Made by a program: the position numbers and the translations under genes
The notes under the pieces: generated by a model
What the model was told of the DNA's origin: nothing
The model's database searches: none
The model's input: the letters and a program-made list of their open reading frames with translations, nothing else
Part shown: piece after piece, positions 9,604 through 30,270 of the stretch
Layout of the letters: every line of letters begins with the position of its first letter
Position numbering within the stretch: the stretch's first letter is position 1
NCBI RefSeq assembly: GCF_004138215.1
Contig: NZ_RYYS01000042.1
Coordinates: forward strand, 62,001 to 126,000
Length of the DNA: 64,000 nt
Origin: Anaerophilus nitritigenes
GTDB lineage: Bacteria; Bacillota; Clostridia; Peptostreptococcales; Thermotaleaceae
Direction: 5' to 3'

Positions 9604-9624
9604 CAATTCAAGTTCATATAATAA

Positions 9625-9868
9625 GTACGATGATGAAGAGGAGTACATAGATCTTTAATCTATAGAGAAGAAATCCATAGGCTGAGAGATTTCTGATTAA
9701 AGTCTTTAGAAGCAGCTTCAGAGTATTAATCTTGAAATGAAGTAGAGATTAACAGATGGCAACTGTTATCATGCTAGGTATTATAAAGAGACCAATTTTT
9801 TTTGGTAAGTAGGGTGGTACCGCGAGAAACCTCTCGTCCCTATACAGGGATGGGAGGTTATTTTTTTG
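9625..9868 (+). promoter_or_regulatory. T-box riboswitch (alanine)
   Basis: The conserved T-box core AGGGTGGTACCGCG is at 9811-9824, followed by the terminator hairpin AACCTCTC-GTCCCT / AGGGAT-GGGAGGTT (9828-9860) and a T run. Stem I contains GCTGAGAG in its distal loop. In the specifier region, GAAGCAGCTTCAGAG offers the Ala codons GCA (9712-9714) and GCT (9715-9717). Uncharged tRNA-Ala should stabilise the antiterminator and turn on alaS. Confidence 0.95.
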
Positions 9869-24442: not shown

Positions 24443-24859
24443 ATGTGGACGACAATGGCAACTTTATCCTTGATTTTAGCAAAACCTATTTTTACATTTG
24501 TTTCTTATGTATCTAGTAATACTTCTTTTCCAAAACCATTAACACCAGAAGAAGAGGAGCATTATTTAAAATTATATGAACAGGGAGATGAGGAGTCAAA
24601 AAATATTTTAGTAGAGCGAAATTTAAGATTAGTTGCCCATATTGTCAAAAAATATCATAATACAGGTAGAGAAGTAGATGATCTTATATCTATTGGAACC
24701 ATAGGACTTATTAAAGCCATCACTTCTTTTGATAGAAGTAAAGGAACGAGACTTGCTACTTATGCAGCAAGATGTATTGAAAATGCTATCCTATCATTGT
24801 GGAAACATTTTGGGAAATATATGAACGACATTTCCATCCCAGTGTATTTTTTTAATTAG
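24443..24859 (+). CDS. sigK: N-terminal part of split sigma-K gene
   Basis: The late mother-cell sigma factor, interrupted. Residues 1-114 are sigma-K-like: a pro-sequence-type hydrophobic start, then FPKPLTPEEEEHYL, NILVERNLRLVAHIVKKY and TRLATYAARCIEN (region 2). After codon 114 the frame enters inserted DNA and stops after about 24 unrelated residues. The ATG at 24443 has AGGAGG eleven bases upstream; the in-frame GTG at 24431 touches that site. Excision of the 5.1-kb element would join it in frame to the part at 29875. CATATAAT at 24400-24407 may be a sporulation -10 element, but the -35 is unclear. Confidence 0.92.
   Translation: MWTTMATLSLILAKPIFTFVSYVSSNTSFPKPLTPEEEEHYLKLYEQGDEESKNILVERNLRLVAHIVKKYHNTGREVDDLISIGTIGLIKAITSFDRSKGTRLATYAARCIENAILSLWKHFGKYMNDISIPVYFFN
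24779..24785. other. Left attachment core (attL) of the sigK element
   Basis: GAAAATG within codons 113-115 of sigK. The wider match to the right end is ATTGAAAATG versus ATAGAAAATG. The stop codon of the first recombinase lies nine bases inside. Confidence 0.85.
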
Positions 24860-26419
24860 ATTCTGAATTAAATTTCTTTTTTTAGAAATAGTGAGTGTAT
24901 TTATTAACTCAGAAAAACTCATCAATATATTATTGATTGTTTTTATTTCATTTTCATTTATCTGTATAGTATTCTTTTTTTCTTGTAAAGATGTTATTTT
25001 TTTCTCTATTTCTTCAATTTCTTTATGCAATTCGTTTATTTGATCCATAATATAGTTGATTATATGACGATCTTGTCCTTGAGATAAAGTATAAACTAAG
25101 TTTTGTATGGCTTTTTCTTTAATTTTTATATTTTTTTGAAGTCTTTTGATTTCTGAAGTTGTTTTATTTGAAATAAGTGGAATGGTTATTTTATTTTTTT
25201 TCATAATATCATATAATACAGAGGTTTCAGAAGTTAGATCTTGAATAGATTCAATGACTAGTTGATCAATTTCATTTCCATTTACATTGTTCATATTACA
25301 ATTTTGTCTTTTGCTTTTTTCTTTTTGTTCACATATATAATAATATGCTTTCTCACCATTTTTTTTGATTCTACCCATCTTAGGTCTCATAAAGCTACCA
25401 CAATTCTTACATATTAATATTCCTGAGAGTAATGCTTGAGTATTTTTAACTTTTCTAAATGACTTTGATTTATTTTGAGAGATCAATTCTTGAACACGAA
25501 TCCATATATTACTTGGAATGACTCCTAGATGAGTTCCTATGGATATAATCCACTCAGATGTACTTTTTAACGTATTTGATTTATGTTTTTGCTGAAAGGT
25601 TTTATTATAAGCCATAATACCGTTTTTTCCATCAAAATCACTTTTATTCGAATAAACTTCAAAATCATTAGAAATAAAATAATCATAAAGATCTTTATCA
25701 GCAGTAGCATATACTGGATTGGTTAAAATATTTTTTAATGAAAAACGTGTAAAATCTATATTATTTTTTGTTTTTATATGATTTTGAATACAATAAGTTT
25801 CAAGCTTTGTAAGAGACTTAAGTAATAAAAATTGCTCATAAAGTATTTTAATGATTTTAATTTCTTCAGGTACGGGTGATAATTGAAACATTTTACGTGT
25901 TTTACCTTCTTTGTCAATAACTTGAGAAGATTTTGAAATAAATCCTGTAGGGGTAATGCCACCAAGCCATCTACCCGTTTTTGCAAGCTCTAACATATTA
26001 TCACGAATTCTTTCAGCTATGGTTTCTCTTTCAAGCTGAGCAAAAACAGAAGCCGTATACATCATAGCACGTCCCATAGGAGTAGAAGTATCAAATTGTT
26101 CACGTAAAGATATAAAGTCTATATTTTGATTTTGAAGTATTTGAATAGTATTTGAGAAATCAGAAATATTTCTAGATATTCTATCTAATCTATAACATAT
26201 TAAAACTTGAAATTTATAATGAAGAGCATCTTGAATCATTTCTTGATACTTAGGTCTATCAATATTTCCTCCAGAGAATCCTTCATCTTCATAGATGATA
26301 AAATTGTCAATACAATCAAATTTTTTTTGAGCATATTCTTTACAAAGATTGATTTGGGTATGTATGGATTCCCCTTTTCCAGTAAATCTGGATTTTCTTG
26401 AATAAATAGCAATATTCAT
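24794..26419 (-). CDS. Large serine recombinase 1 (SpoIVCA-like), at the left end
   Basis: 541 residues. The resolvase domain begins MNIAIYSRKSRFTGKGESI with the nucleophile Ser8 (YSRKS), and CYRLDRISRNISDFS carries the active-site arginines. A recombinase domain, a zinc ribbon (CKNCGSFMRPKMG...YYYICEQ...QNC) and a C-terminal coiled coil (about 450-520) follow. The minus-strand ATG at 26419 has AGGAGG five bases upstream; the longer open frame upstream has neither a ribosome site nor family sequence. It ends nine bases from attL. It is the best candidate for the enzyme that excises the element. Confidence 0.93.
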   Translation of the reverse strand: MNIAIYSRKSRFTGKGESIHTQINLCKEYAQKKFDCIDNFIIYEDEGFSGGNIDRPKYQEMIQDALHYKFQVLICYRLDRISRNISDFSNTIQILQNQNIDFISLREQFDTSTPMGRAMMYTASVFAQLERETIAERIRDNMLELAKTGRWLGGITPTGFISKSSQVIDKEGKTRKMFQLSPVPEEIKIIKILYEQFLLLKSLTKLETYCIQNHIKTKNNIDFTRFSLKNILTNPVYATADKDLYDYFISNDFEVYSNKSDFDGKNGIMAYNKTFQQKHKSNTLKSTSEWIISIGTHLGVIPSNIWIRVQELISQNKSKSFRKVKNTQALLSGILICKNCGSFMRPKMGRIKKNGEKAYYYICEQKEKSKRQNCNMNNVNGNEIDQLVIESIQDLTSETSVLYDIMKKNKITIPLISNKTTSEIKRLQKNIKIKEKAIQNLVYTLSQGQDRHIINYIMDQINELHKEIEEIEKKITSLQEKKNTIQINENEIKTINNILMSFSELINTLTISKKRNLIQNLIKKIHWDGNVVHIFPKMFPQ

Positions 26420-26614
26420 AAAATCCTCCTCTAATTTTTCTTCTATTTTTTCTTGTATTTTTATATAGTTCTCATAAAAGTATATGAATCTTTGGGCAAT
26501 ATATAGATCAAATTGAAATAAATTTATTATTTCCGAGGTAATAGTGAAAATTAGACAGTTATTTTCAGTATAGTACAAACTCTAAAGTTCATATAAATAA
26601 CAAGGGGGGATAAT

Positions 26615-26821
26615 ATGAAAATTAGAGCATATTTTCCAGAGAGCAAAGATGAAAACAAAGTATTTAAAGAAAAAATAGCAAAAGAACATATGAATATGAT
26701 AAAAGATTATATTGGTCAATTAGCATATTCACAAGAAGAAAAATATATGATTTGGATGAACATTCAATGGGAAATTAAAAAAAGAGCAAAGGATGAAATG
26801 AAGAAGGTATTTCCTAGGTAA
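26615..26821 (+). CDS. 68-residue basic protein, candidate recombination directionality factor
   Basis: It starts at ATG 26615 after AAGGGGGGAT, an excellent ribosome site. The product is small, charged and mainly helical (YIGQLAYSQEEKYMIWMNIQWEIKKRAKDEMKK). It is divergent from recombinase 1, sharing a 195-bp intergenic region, and convergent with recombinase 2. Large serine recombinases need a small partner to run excision, and in C. difficile skin such a factor is encoded inside the element. No sequence family was recognised; the role is inferred from size and position. Confidence 0.6.
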   Translation: MKIRAYFPESKDENKVFKEKIAKEHMNMIKDYIGQLAYSQEEKYMIWMNIQWEIKKRAKDEMKKVFPR

Positions 26822-26874
26822 TAGTAAAAATATGACGGCAAATATCAATATTATTAAAAAATGTGCACAAGAGG

Positions 26875-28431
26875 CTATGGAGTAGACAAATATATTTTCA
26901 CTTCTTCACCATCCCACGAAATTCGATCAATAATATTTGTTAAAAAAATTTTTTTTTCTTTATTTAATAAATGGTCAATTTGGGTTGAAAAATCAATAGA
27001 AACATTATTTAGATTATGAAAAAAATTTTTATCATTTTGTATAGGGGAATTTAGTAAATTTTTTATTTGTCTATTTTCTTTATGTAAATTTTTAATTTCT
27101 TGTAAGATATATTTTAATAGAGACGAATTTTTATATATAGATATTTGATTGGATAAATTTTGAATTTTTTTATTATTATTTTCTAACTTACATAATAAAT
27201 TTCCGTATGAAGAATTAATTTTAGAAAAATCTATATTAAGAATAGTTTGAGAAGATAAAATTTGTTTGAATTTATTTATTACCAATTGATCTATTAGGAT
27301 TCCTGATAAATTTGGACATTGACACTTGCTTTTTTGACTGCAAATATAGTAATAATGTCTTTGATTAGTATTTTTTATGAGCTGACCATACTTAATTTTC
27401 ATAAATTTATTACAATGTGCACATAGTAAAAGTCCAGAAAGAATTCCAGTTTCTGAAGTACCTTCACGAGGGGTTTTTGCTTTTTTTGAAGTTAAAATAT
27501 TTTGTACAAATATCCAATCTTTTCCCTCTATAAGTCCTTTATGTTTTCCTATTGTACAAATCCAATCAGACATATTTTTTGTTTTTATACTTTTTCCTTT
27601 TTCAACTTTTTTTTTGTTATATACCATTATCCCATACTCACCATTAAAATCTTCTTTGGAGTTACTGATTTGAACTTTTTTATTGAGAAAATATTTATAT
27701 ATATTTATATCAGCCATAGCATAAACAGGATTCGTAAGAATAAGTTTAAGAGAATGCTCATAATAATCTTTTCCTGTCTTTGTATGAATTAGATTTTTAT
27801 TACAATAAGATTTTAAAAGGGAAAGAGATTGAAATTCTAGAAATTTGTTAAATAATAATTTTACAGTGTTCAATTCTTTTTCAATAGGAGCAAGTTGATA
27901 CATTTGTTTTGTATGGTTATTTTGATTTATATAAAAAACTGGAATAGACTCAAATCCTGTGGGAGTCATACCACCAAGCCATCTTCCAGTACGTGAGAGT
28001 TCTATTAAATTATCTTTAATTCTTTCTTGAATCGTTTCTTTTTCAAATTGTGAAAAAACAGATGAAATATATAGCATAGCTTTTCCCATAGATGTAGATG
28101 TATCAAAATTTTCTTTTAATGATATAAATTCTATTTTATTTTTTTTGAATAACTGCATAAGATAAGAAAAATCAGAAACATTTCTAGATATTCTATCTAA
28201 GCGATAACACACTAACATATCGAACTCTTTTCTTTGTGCATCAAGTATCATTTTTTCATATGCTGGTCTATGTGTATTGCTGCCACTAAAACCTTCATCT
28301 TCATAAATTAAAAATTTATGAATGGCTTTAAATTTTTCATATGCATGTTCTTTACACAATTTAATTTGATTTTGAATAGATTCTCCAGTAGGAGTAAATC
28401 TTGACTTTCTAGAATAAATGGCTATATTCAT
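26875..28431 (-). CDS. Large serine recombinase 2 (paralogue of recombinase 1)
   Basis: 518 residues. It is clearly related to recombinase 1 along its length: MNIAIYSRKSRFTPTGESI, CYRLDRISRNVSDFS, GRWLGGMTPTGFES, zinc ribbon CAHCNKFMKIKYG...YYYICSQKSKCQCPN, and a C-terminal coiled coil. All catalytic positions, including Ser8, appear intact, so it is not an obvious pseudogene. AAAGGTGAT precedes the ATG. Whether it acts at the same att sites, as a heterodimer, or at another locus cannot be told from the sequence. Confidence 0.92.
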   Translation of the reverse strand: MNIAIYSRKSRFTPTGESIQNQIKLCKEHAYEKFKAIHKFLIYEDEGFSGSNTHRPAYEKMILDAQRKEFDMLVCYRLDRISRNVSDFSYLMQLFKKNKIEFISLKENFDTSTSMGKAMLYISSVFSQFEKETIQERIKDNLIELSRTGRWLGGMTPTGFESIPVFYINQNNHTKQMYQLAPIEKELNTVKLLFNKFLEFQSLSLLKSYCNKNLIHTKTGKDYYEHSLKLILTNPVYAMADINIYKYFLNKKVQISNSKEDFNGEYGIMVYNKKKVEKGKSIKTKNMSDWICTIGKHKGLIEGKDWIFVQNILTSKKAKTPREGTSETGILSGLLLCAHCNKFMKIKYGQLIKNTNQRHYYYICSQKSKCQCPNLSGILIDQLVINKFKQILSSQTILNIDFSKINSSYGNLLCKLENNNKKIQNLSNQISIYKNSSLLKYILQEIKNLHKENRQIKNLLNSPIQNDKNFFHNLNNVSIDFSTQIDHLLNKEKKIFLTNIIDRISWDGEEVKIYLSTP

Positions 28432-28530
28432 AAAATCACCTTTTTAAAATTAAGATGTAGTTAAAAGATTGGTACAGGATAAAAGAAAAGCCTTTATAAG
28501 AGTATATAGAAATATATATATAAACAGAAC

Positions 28531-28568
28531 AAAAAAGACTAGAATCTATTTTAACTAGATTCTAGTCT
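28531..28568 (-). terminator. Terminator of the element's hydrolase gene
   Basis: A 12-bp perfect stem AGACTAGAATCT (28536-28547) with AGATTCTAGTCT (28557-28568). On the minus strand it is followed by six T, directly after the hydrolase stop. Confidence 0.88.
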
Positions 28569-28574
28569 AATATA

Positions 28575-29534
28575 TTATCGATAGAAATCATGTAAATGTA
28601 TGCTTTTATAGAAAGGCCTATTAGCAACAATCCAAAAACTAGTTGAAATACGTGGATTTAAGAAATATAATGCATTTTCAATATTATTATTTCCTAAAAG
28701 TGCTTCTTGTGCAGCTATAATACTTTCTTGTGATGGAGTATTATAGATAGTATTGTTCATTACAGGGGTAAATTGAAAACCATATTCTTTATCAAAAATT
28801 ACTTCTTTTATGGTACTTGGAAAATCAGGACTATTTTTTCTGTTGAGAACTACATTGGCTACTGCTAATTTTCCATCAAAGGGTTCACCAGAAGTTTCAG
28901 CTTCTACGATTCTAGATAACCAATAAAGATCTTCTTCAAGATAATCATTATTTTTTTTAGTCTGAATAGAGACTATGTATTTTTCAGAATTCCACGTTAC
29001 TGTACAGTTAAAGGTTTCAGCTATGAAACGAATAGGAACAAAAGTTCTGCCATTATAGATATTAATGGGAGCATCTAAAGATATACTTTTATCATCGATT
29101 ATCGCAGTTCGTGAATGAAGAGGAAGAGAAATAGTTGAGTTATTGTTTTGGATAATTGCAGTATTAGTTTTTTCTATCCATTGAATGTTTTCAACACCTA
29201 GTGCGTTGCTAATGAAACGAATAGGTACGAAAGTTCTGCCATTTTCTAAATAAGGTTGCGTATCTGTATGAATTACTTTTCCATCTACTTGAATGGAAAT
29301 ATTTTTGTGATTTGGTAAAGCTTCTATTTTCATTAAGTTTCCAGCATACAATGATTCTCCTAAATCGTTGTTTAATTTTTTTAATTCATTAGCAGATTGA
29401 TTGTATTTTTTAGCTATATTTTGATAAGTATCATTAGGTTGAATCGTATGCATCATATAAGAATCTGCATAAGTAGAGGTGCTGGATAAGAGTATTCCTA
29501 AAGAAAGGAATAAGGAAAGTGCTAGTTTTTTCAT
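28575..29534 (-). CDS. Secreted LysM / copper-amine-oxidase-stalk / SleB-type cell-wall hydrolase
   Basis: 319 residues. A signal peptide (about 1-23) is followed by LysM (MHTIQPNDTYQNIAKKYNQSA, about 28-72), a copper amine oxidase N-terminal-like domain with two GRTFVPIRFI motifs (about 80-195), and a Hydrolase_2/SleB domain (about 205-319: WLSRIVEAETSGEPFDGKLAVANVVLNR). The glutamate in RIVEAE is the likely catalytic residue. SleB-type enzymes cut spore cortex or mother-cell peptidoglycan. The ATG at 29534 follows AGGAGG at usual spacing. Being inside the sigK element, it would be lost from the mother-cell chromosome when sigK is rebuilt but kept in the spore. Confidence 0.85.
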   Translation of the reverse strand: MKKLALSLFLSLGILLSSTSTYADSYMMHTIQPNDTYQNIAKKYNQSANELKKLNNDLGESLYAGNLMKIEALPNHKNISIQVDGKVIHTDTQPYLENGRTFVPIRFISNALGVENIQWIEKTNTAIIQNNNSTISLPLHSRTAIIDDKSISLDAPINIYNGRTFVPIRFIAETFNCTVTWNSEKYIVSIQTKKNNDYLEEDLYWLSRIVEAETSGEPFDGKLAVANVVLNRKNSPDFPSTIKEVIFDKEYGFQFTPVMNNTIYNTPSQESIIAAQEALLGNNNIENALYFLNPRISTSFWIVANRPFYKSIHLHDFYR

Positions 29535-29670
29535 AGGTATTCCTCCTATCATAATTAATAAATATTATAGCTTTTTTATATAAAGAAAACAATTCAAAAA
29601 TAATAGAAGAAATGACTAAATTTAACATACTCTATTTTTTTTGATAAATTAGAAAGGGTGATAAAATAAA

Positions 29671-29859
29671 ATGAAAGATATAGAAGTGAAAATCTTTATT
29701 CAAAATAAAAGATTAGAAGAAGTATCTTATACGCAGCAAGAAAAATTAAAGACAAATATAATGGAAACTTATAAAAAACAAATTACAAGAAAAGTTATAA
29801 ATATGATCAAAGAAGACAAATCTAAAGAAGAAATAATCAAATATTTAGGAATGAAGTAG
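29671..29859 (+). CDS. 62-residue small protein next to the right junction
   Basis: It starts at ATG 29671 after GAAAGGGTG. The protein is charged and helical (KLKTNIMETYKKQITRKVINMIKEDKSKEEIIKYL). It ends 15 bases before attR and has the same direction as sigK. No family recognised. Like the 68-residue ORF it could be a directionality factor, or a regulator of the element. Intrinsic coding evidence is limited to its ribosome site and position. Confidence 0.5.
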   Translation: MKDIEVKIFIQNKRLEEVSYTQQEKLKTNIMETYKKQITRKVINMIKEDKSKEEIIKYLGMK

Positions 29860-29874
29860 CATTTAAAAAACATA

Positions 29875-29881
29875 GAAAATG
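29875..29881. other. Right attachment core (attR) of the sigK element
   Basis: GAAAATG, in the same reading frame as the left copy. Upstream is element DNA; downstream is AAATATTGATGACAATACG, the continuation of sigK. Confidence 0.85.
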
Positions 29882-30270
29882 AAATATTGATGACAATACG
29901 TGCTAACAAAAAAACAAAAAATGAAGTCTCCTTACAAGATCCTATTGGTGTTGATAAAGAAGGCAATGAAATATCTTTAATGGATATATTAGGAACAGAA
30001 ACAGATGAAGTATTAGATGAAGTAGAACTAAAAATACAAGTAAAAAAATTATATGAAAAAATGGCAGATGTATTAAAGAATAGAGAGAAGACTGTCTTAC
30101 AGCTTAGATATGGTTTGGCAAATGGAGGAAGTAAAACACAAAGAGAAATTGCACAATTTTTAGGAATTTCTAGATCCTATGTTTCAAGGATAGAAAAGAG
30201 AGCCATTAAAAAATTAGGTAAAGCATTCTATATAACCAATTTAGATAAAAAGGAAAAAAATGAAGACTGA
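29875..30270 (+). CDS. sigK: C-terminal part of split sigma-K gene
   Basis: 131 codons from the junction: ENEILMTIRANKKTKNEVSLQDP, LMDILGTE, then region 3/4 with NREKTVLQLRYGL and the region 4 helix-turn-helix TQREIAQFLGISRSYVSRIEKRA. It lacks its own sensible start (TTG 29887/ATG 29890 have no ribosome site), so it should be expressed only after excision. The joined product would be 243 residues, the normal size for pro-sigma-K. Confidence 0.93.
   Translation, partial: ENEILMTIRANKKTKNEVSLQDPIGVDKEGNEISLMDILGTETDEVLDEVELKIQVKKLYEKMADVLKNREKTVLQLRYGLANGGSKTQREIAQFLGISRSYVSRIEKRAIKKLGKAFYITNLDKKEKNED

Follow-up and report, generated by a model that had tools for sequence, protein, structure and literature searches.

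A skin-type element in sigK of Anaerophilus nitritigenes, probably built from two stacked recombination modules

Genes reported to be split by intervening elements include sigK, spoIVFB, spoVR, spsM, gerE and kamA (PMC6957869), as well as yabG (PMC10747680). Within sigK, the positions occupied by the skin elements of Bacillus subtilis and Clostridioides difficile differ (PMC5025042, PMC6957869). The gin element of gerE has been called a likely composite of mobile elements, and it shows that intervening elements in general need not contain phage genes (PMC5595907). Because of the earlier work on skin and gin, skin-like elements, two sigK sites, non-phage elements and elements with several large serine recombinases (LSRs) are each known. 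In the literature found, a split sporulation gene has a single intervening element, of which one recombinase is functional; within the open-licence PMC literature no report was found of a sigK site in which two LSR lineages are stacked, nor of sigK split at both sites or requiring inversion. Here we describe sigK of Anaerophilus nitritigenes in a window of 64,000 nucleotides (the whole stretch of DNA analyzed), which corresponds to positions 62001-126000 of contig C51 in source genome G000 (3.06 Mb, 112 contigs, 99.5% complete). The gene is interrupted by a 5.1-kb element, and we propose, with a probability of roughly 0.7, that this is a skin-type element made of two site-specific recombination modules stacked in one sigK attachment site and leaving as a unit.

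The 5' part of sigK (24443..24785, + strand) encodes residues 1-114 up to the crossover core and matches positions 4-128 of TIGR02846 (E 1.2e-53), while the 3' part (29878..30270, +) matches positions 114-226 (E 4.7e-51). The core GAAAATG is found at 24779-24785 and again at 29875-29881, with a spacing of 5096 bp, and joining the two parts there yields an uninterrupted in-frame SigK of 243 amino acids starting from the ATG at 24443. The initial annotation had described such a split, with 5.1 kb inserted at GAAAATG and 243 residues after joining, and both its coordinates and its joined frame agree with these. The 7-bp repeat by itself carries little weight, because there are 36 copies on the + strand and 8 on the - strand of the window. 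The split is considered real because the core falls in frame, at codons IEN|E, at a site which is split identically in 18 genomes with listed junctions (G000 included), while sigK is uninterrupted in G015, a member of the same family that provides the comparison with a relative lacking the insert. The core of the B. subtilis skin element, AATGA at codons 112/113, presumably marks the same site. A second intact sigK elsewhere had been named as grounds for abandoning the idea of excision; a SigK profile search found none in this 99.5%-complete genome, where the sole other near full-length match to the SigK model belongs to SigE, encoded on contig C34 (404.8 bits, cut-off 339). Both sigE and spoIIID are encoded in G000, the SpoIIID match having an E-value of 8.6e-44.

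Five genes lie inside the element. The LSR gene rec1 (24794..26419, -) encodes 541 amino acids and belongs to lineage A1 of the recombinases located at this sigK position, called site A, while rec2 (26875..28431, -) encodes an LSR of 518 amino acids from lineage A2. The small open reading frames (ORFs) s1 (26615..26821, +; 68 amino acids) and s2 (29671..29859, +; 62 amino acids) encode candidate recombination directionality factors (RDFs) of the A1 and A2 lineages, respectively. The fifth gene (28575..29552, -) encodes a 325-residue protein with LysM, Cu-amine-oxidase-N and SleB/CwlJ-type cell wall hydrolase domains (PF01476, PF07833, PF07486). In the sister species G002, an element with these five genes occupies the corresponding site, with 86.6% identity over aligned bases. 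Selection between the two was computed by NG86, with a dS of 0.40-0.67 for the five element genes: dN/dS is 0.235 for rec1, 0.262 for rec2, 0.182 for the hydrolase, 0.232 for s2 and 0.307 for s1, and the two sigK parts have the lowest values among the coding sequences compared (0.076 and 0.027). These values indicate that the pair of LSRs and the pair of small ORFs are being maintained in G000 and G002.

Prophage gene content, which characterizes skin in B. subtilis and C. tetani, is not found here. No phage structural genes were recognized among the five genes with PHROGs, the named matches being integrase/invertase families, endolysin-type hydrolases and one weak SbcC-like match. The initial annotation was correct on this point, but its description of a minimal version with few parts has to be dropped, since the element contains two LSRs, two small ORFs and a hydrolase, and the truly small elements are those of G005 (~2.2 kb; a single LSR and a single small ORF) and G008 (~2.9 kb). 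In a search at E ≤ 1e-25, the hydrolase has a single match in G000 and one in G002, each being the copy within the element. Essentially full-length homologues, 56-60% identical, are located elsewhere in the genomes of G001, G005, G006, G007, G008 and G012; six other relatives match over the C-terminal domain only, and none was found in G013 and G014. The likeliest origin of this gene is the capture of a resident one, and if it was indeed taken from the host, permanent loss of the element would be costly.

The Rec1 and Rec2 proteins are 45% identical. As expected for LSRs, each has Resolvase, Recombinase and Zn-ribbon domains together with the motifs YSRKS (which includes S10) and YRLDRISRN, retained in G000 and G002 alike. 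S10 is invariant across 13 aligned LSRs, and the putative catalytic serine of CD1231 is also S10 (PMC5025042). A PDB sequence search with the LSR alignment gave 8 matches, all of them serine recombinases (TP901-1 integrase, SPbeta YokA, TnpX and others), and the genome-contig search with rec1 gave one metagenome-assembled relative, 43% identical, in a collection from which near relatives may be left out. The LSR gene adjoins the element's end, with 15 bp between the end of rec1 and the position where the attL core starts. In a midpoint-rooted tree of 55 LSRs (supports given as pairs), the recombinases of relatives at a second sigK position, site B, form one clade (12 rows, 100/100), and those of site A are spread over several lineages. 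Lineage A1 (11 rows, 100/97) contains rec1 and the LSRs of G005, G006, G008 and others. The rec2 product pairs with the second LSR of G003 (100/88), with those of G130 and G102 adjacent (95/91), and a broader A2 group (10 rows, 88/91) takes in G042, G031 and G020 as well, plus two LSRs located at yunB. Elements with a single LSR at site A were read end to end for A1 in G005, G006 and G008, and for A2 in G130, G042 and G031; two lineages that use the site separately therefore meet in the G000 element. A comparable stack in G003 is only inferred, because its two LSRs are on separate contigs (C4 and C16).

The small ORFs follow the same division. Families were built by iterative HMM searches over the ORFs of 40-140 amino acids at the site loci. 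Homologues of s1 are present in 9 genomes, every one with an A1 recombinase, and those of s2 in 6 genomes, every one with an A2 recombinase; among the loci searched, the two families co-occur solely in G000 and G002. Profile comparison found no kinship between s1 and s2 (probability 1%). Both are predicted to be small helical proteins, s1 being modeled with two helices (mean pLDDT 86.8 for s1 and 89.2 for s2), and a fold search of the PDB with the two models returned nothing at E ≤ 0.001.

Upstream from s1 there is a putative mother-cell control region. The SpoIIID consensus is WWRRACARNY, and a perfect match to it (26551..26560, +) is centered 48.5 bp ahead of the putative start point near 26604. 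It is followed by a sigma-E-like promoter (26568..26597, +) consisting of GTATAGT, a 15-bp spacer and CATATAAA, which is conserved in G000, G002, G005, G006 and G008; the SpoIIID-type box and the promoter are both kept in sister G002. A near-palindromic block, TTTCCGAGGTAATAGTGAAAAT (26530..26551, +), lies upstream of both rec1 and s1, with 0-1 mismatch in these same five genomes, and a second copy with 2 mismatches is found at 26810-26831. This block, TATTTCC(GA)GGTAATAGTGAAAAT, is also present in the relatives' loci L082, L083, L084 and L085, where it lies upstream of the LSR and at other places near sigK. The motif ATAG[TG]ACAA-N7..14-[CA]ATA is located ahead of s1 in 7 of 9 cases and ahead of s2 in 4 of 6, compared with 1 of 423 other ORFs (Fisher 6e-18), the latter being ORFs of at least 100 amino acids mechanically listed in the window and loci, some of them counted double as the loci overlap. 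There are 26 motif occurrences in the window and loci, against 0-6 in five first-order Markov resamplings. Of 29 distinct occurrences listed, 26 have a small ORF (54-82 amino acids) downstream, 11 of these being s1 or s2 and 15 new ones that played no part in the motif's derivation. Ten of the new ORFs look by eye like members of a single family (nine come from site-B loci and one from near an extra 3' sigK piece of G010), four belong to elements at another locus, and one is in the site-A element of G124. The s1 gene thus has a sigma-E/SpoIIID-type promoter signature; it may encode a small RDF, and its promoter may be active under these two regulators in the mother cell.

The attachment sites could be delimited by comparing left and right site-A junctions. 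In the attL core (24779..24785, +), the crossover dinucleotide would be the AA at 24782-24783, since intersecting the junctions of relatives (GAAAA in G005, AAT in G011, AATG in G001) narrows the shared bases to positions 4-5 of GAAAATG. The P' half of attL (24786..24808, +) overlaps the 3' end of rec1 and is of the A1 type, with leave-one-out position weight matrix (PWM) scores of 18.9 for A1 and 5.0 for A2. The same scores are 21.0 versus 4.3 in sister G002 and 19.1 versus 9.1 in G003, and this typing is right for 11 of 11 single-lineage controls. On the right, the P half (29850..29874, +) precedes the attR core (29875..29881, +), which was placed by its matching core and the junctions of relatives. 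A weakly A2 typing of attR (A2 versus A1 scores of 2.9 and -2.8 in G000, 7.9 and 0.0 in G002, 16.9 and 14.9 in G003) was withdrawn, as the PWM is correct there for 6 of 11 controls only. The predicted attB is GCAAGATGTATT joined to GAAAATGAAATATTG. At the junction of the two units (26810..26875), no intact internal attachment site was found, and the half-site matrices gave no convincing P(A1)-core-P'(A2) match. A candidate middle site at ~26858 was rejected: the sister has AAAAGG for AAAATG, no site there fits both half-site types, and the flank is like the block upstream of rec1.

Within the family, SigK or SigE matches were found in 14 of 16 genomes. Across the order, 138 of 297 genomes have a match at E ≤ 1e-35, and these were classed by hand from matches and loci (G146, G196, G134 and G194 by coordinates alone, G202 partly so). 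In 97 of the 138, sigK is uninterrupted, that is, present as one long match scoring above SigE (96 genomes outside the family, plus G015); in 35 it is split (13 in the family, 22 outside), and 6 are undecided. In the latter group, G045 and G059 are cut by contig ends, G058 and G284 have SigE-like matches only, and G229 and G233 look like frameshifts. Site A alone is occupied in 14 genomes (G000, G002, G005, G008, G010, G011, G014, G031, G118, G130, G077, G102, G124 and G036), to which G049 was added, its middle part not being found. Site B alone is occupied in 14 (G004, G009, G067, G065, G115, G146, G196, G111, G134, G127, G194, G202, G235 and G241), both sites are occupied in five (G001, G003, G006, G042 and G020), and G012 has a third sigK position. 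The sigK pieces are on separate contigs in G003, G014, G036, G049, G067, G111 and G202. Joining at the site-A AA opens a SigK frame in 9 of 9 single-locus and 2 of 2 two-locus cases (239-268 codons from the upstream stop), and joining at site B does so in 7 of 7 cases tried (218-250 codons).

When both sites are occupied, sigK comes in three pieces. On single contigs, the inserts measure 2659 and 4421 bp in G001, 2917 and 3968 bp in G006, and 6142 and 16943 bp in G042. The middle piece is 93 bp long in these genomes and, from coordinates, in G003 as well, and joining both sites gives frames of 244-250 codons in all four. These loci (L077 in G001, L083 in G006, L096 and L097 in G042, L079 and L080 in G003) have two LSR classes at two sites. 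In G031 (L095), the 3' part of sigK is inverted relative to the 5' part, and flipping it at the same core gives an open frame; in G020 (L094 and L128), the middle and last pieces are inverted with respect to the first, and the joined pieces form a 244-codon frame. In both genomes, the pilus genes downstream share the orientation of the 5' piece. Because the 3' pieces and the site-A core are inverted, sigK would need an inversion here. In G111 (contigs C220, L117, and C332, L118), one contig runs through site B without interruption, and the 127 bp at its end are identical to the 3' sigK piece that stands beside the element on the other; the presence of both forms is probably the trace of excision in part of the cells, or else reflects two strains in the culture. 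In G012 (L090, L114), sigK breaks off behind residue 217, and the next gene is ParA-like (by eye). This may be a third insertion site, site C; the missing end of sigK could not be located in the 6.6 kb between there and the contig end.

We propose the following model for the element of the window. Its left unit would be made of rec1 and s1, and its right unit of rec2, the hydrolase gene and s2. In the mother cell, sigma-E and SpoIIID would turn on s1, whose product would act as the directionality factor. Once it is present, the recombinase or recombinases would recombine attL with attR at the AA dinucleotide, all 5.1 kb would depart as a single circle, and sigK would be joined in frame. The two units would leave together because the internal attachment site was lost or never existed. 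Excision in the mother cell is very probable: the initial annotation had proposed a skin-like element excised there by a serine recombinase, a proposal that the LSRs, the s1 promoter, SpoIIID and the shared site support. Several observations weigh against the model. In the window, the motif is found before s1 and not before s2, likewise in sister G002, and the count of 11 motif-preceded genes among 15 is partly circular because the motif was derived from the same s1 and s2 upstream regions. A simple sigma-E score was discarded as promoter evidence, since it is not significant (139 of 1000 shuffles reach at least 10). Among the site loci, no s1 homologue was found in the A1 genomes G003 and G124, and that of G036 is weak; no s2 homologue was found in the A2 genomes G102 (of which the element ends only were read) and G020. 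In the sister species, s1 is shortened by 7 codons via a frameshift. The attR scores, given their control result, assign the right end to no lineage, and since the internal junction has no clear relic, fusion may have occurred otherwise than by tandem integration. The A2 lineage is not strictly sigK-specific, because L050 and L060 are at yunB rather than sigK, and the fork seen in G111 belongs to the site-B lineage.

The most serious competing explanation, possible although clearly less probable than the stacked-module model, is that rec1 and s1 alone do the work in a single A1-type skin, with rec2, s2 and the hydrolase as cargo, much like girA and girB in gin. The mother-cell promoter motif placed before s1 only and the A1-type inner half of attL fit this explanation, as does the dispensability of girAB in gin (PMC5595907). 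Moreover, rec1 might read attR itself, because the matrices cannot separate A1 from A2 right halves. However, purifying selection on rec2 and s2 is about equal to that on rec1 and s1, several members of the rec2 lineage occupy this very sigK site as sole LSR, and CATAG precedes the right core in G000, G002 and 3 of 5 A2 elements but in 0 of 8 A1 elements (by eye and post hoc). It can also be imagined that excision takes place in two steps, rec2 and s2 removing the right unit via an internal attachment site before rec1 and s1 remove the left one. Two complete module pairs are indeed present, and there is an AAAATG 12 nt from the rec2 stop, comparable to the one 9 nt from the rec1 stop. Yet no internal site matches both half-site types, the sequence left of the candidate core looks more like a duplicate of the block upstream of rec1 than like an attachment half-site, and the sister's core reads AAAAGG instead of AAAATG (the AA being retained), which makes two steps improbable.

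Still harder to accept is the idea that the insertion has decayed, the strain having lost sporulation and its sigK being simply broken. Its appeal is that excision in the source organism is inferred, but the sigK parts are the most constrained of the sequences compared, they join in frame in both G000 and G002, all five element genes are open and conserved, and spoIIID and sigE are present. A bolder extension of the stacked-module model is that of a two-key lock, in which rec1 would read attL and rec2 attR in a heterotypic synapse, SigK being made only if both fire; across the order, sigK would be spliced at the DNA level from up to three pieces by two independent recombinase classes, in one family by inversion. 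We regard this as a long shot, rated above two-step excision and below the cargo explanation.

Other loci encountered in the search involve related recombinases. The A2-group LSRs L050 (G004) and L060 (G003) abut a truncated yunB (TIGR02832 positions 8-91 and 8-83 of 204), and this sporulation gene may be split there too. A distinct LSR clade (L069, L070 and L075) abuts a shortened yifB/comM-type ATPase gene, by family call for L069 and by eye for L070 and L075; such genes are a common mobile-element target. LSRs of the same class in L055, L063, L064 and L072 lie close to what by eye is an ABC transporter operon, and all four loci have a 56-residue ORF behind the same motif, and L071 has an LSR near ytvI. 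In viral contigs, 151 stretches encode LSR relatives; the best 80 of these 151 are 35-48% identical, and sigK-like pieces (>45% identical) are found in 3 of these 80. In prophage contigs (L137, L138, L148, L153, L162, L163, L188, L206 and others), the motif often precedes a small ORF (~47-90 amino acids), many of the cases being copies of one phage type. This hints that coupling of excision to sporulation may be more widespread among clostridial prophages. When the window was searched with Rfam and for tRNAs, no tRNA was found, and there was a single T-box leader distant from the element (9621-9844, RF00230, 135 bits).

A compound element with two complete and conserved LSR/small-ORF pairs illustrates how such elements may accrete and merge, and it raises the question of whether two recombinases share one reaction. 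The sigK genes of the relatives form a natural series, with no element, one or two, stacked or inverted, permitting comparison of developmental DNA rearrangement, RDF specificity and host dependence on excision. The small-ORF/promoter signature also offers a means to seek such RDFs.

Like the B. subtilis skin element, the element of the window interrupts sigK with an LSR gene downstream of the 5' part (PMC10747680), has a short core (five nucleotides in B. subtilis; PMC13141910) and encodes small putative RDFs (64 amino acids for that of the SpoIVCA and Skr system; PMC6957869). The B. subtilis element differs in being 48 kb long and prophage-like (PMC13141910), with one described site-specific recombination unit (PMC6957869), as opposed to 5.1 kb and two LSR/small-ORF pairs; this comparison is one of organization rather than of proteins. 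In the C. difficile skin element, the small RDF CD1234 is under the control of sigma-E and SpoIIID, with the SpoIIID motif centered 46 bp before its start point (PMC5025042), as compared with ~48 bp for the putative start of s1. That element, however, has 19 genes, a single LSR (CD1231), another sigK position and the orientation opposite to that of B. subtilis (PMC5025042). From the placement of its LSR before the 3' part, and not from sequence, it would seem to resemble the site-B elements, such as that of G065, rather than this one. The SCCmec/CcrAB system also stacks mobile units on one attachment site and has paired LSRs (as presented in PMC5595907), but the target here is a developmental gene. 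Membership of rec1 and rec2 in the Ccr families was rejected, as they score 126.7 and 107.2 bits against an NCBIfam equivalog cut-off of 900 for CcrB and are also far below those of CcrA and CcrC. The gin element of gerE in B. cereus ATCC10987 is like this one a non-prophage element with more than one LSR, an excision factor (GirX) and a predicted AA cleavage (PMC5595907). It differs by its target gene, its 31 genes and its three LSRs, which are ~22-26% identical, GirC together with GirX being what excision requires (PMC5595907). In the present element, identity between the two LSRs is 45%, and they stem from two lineages that are both represented at this sigK site.

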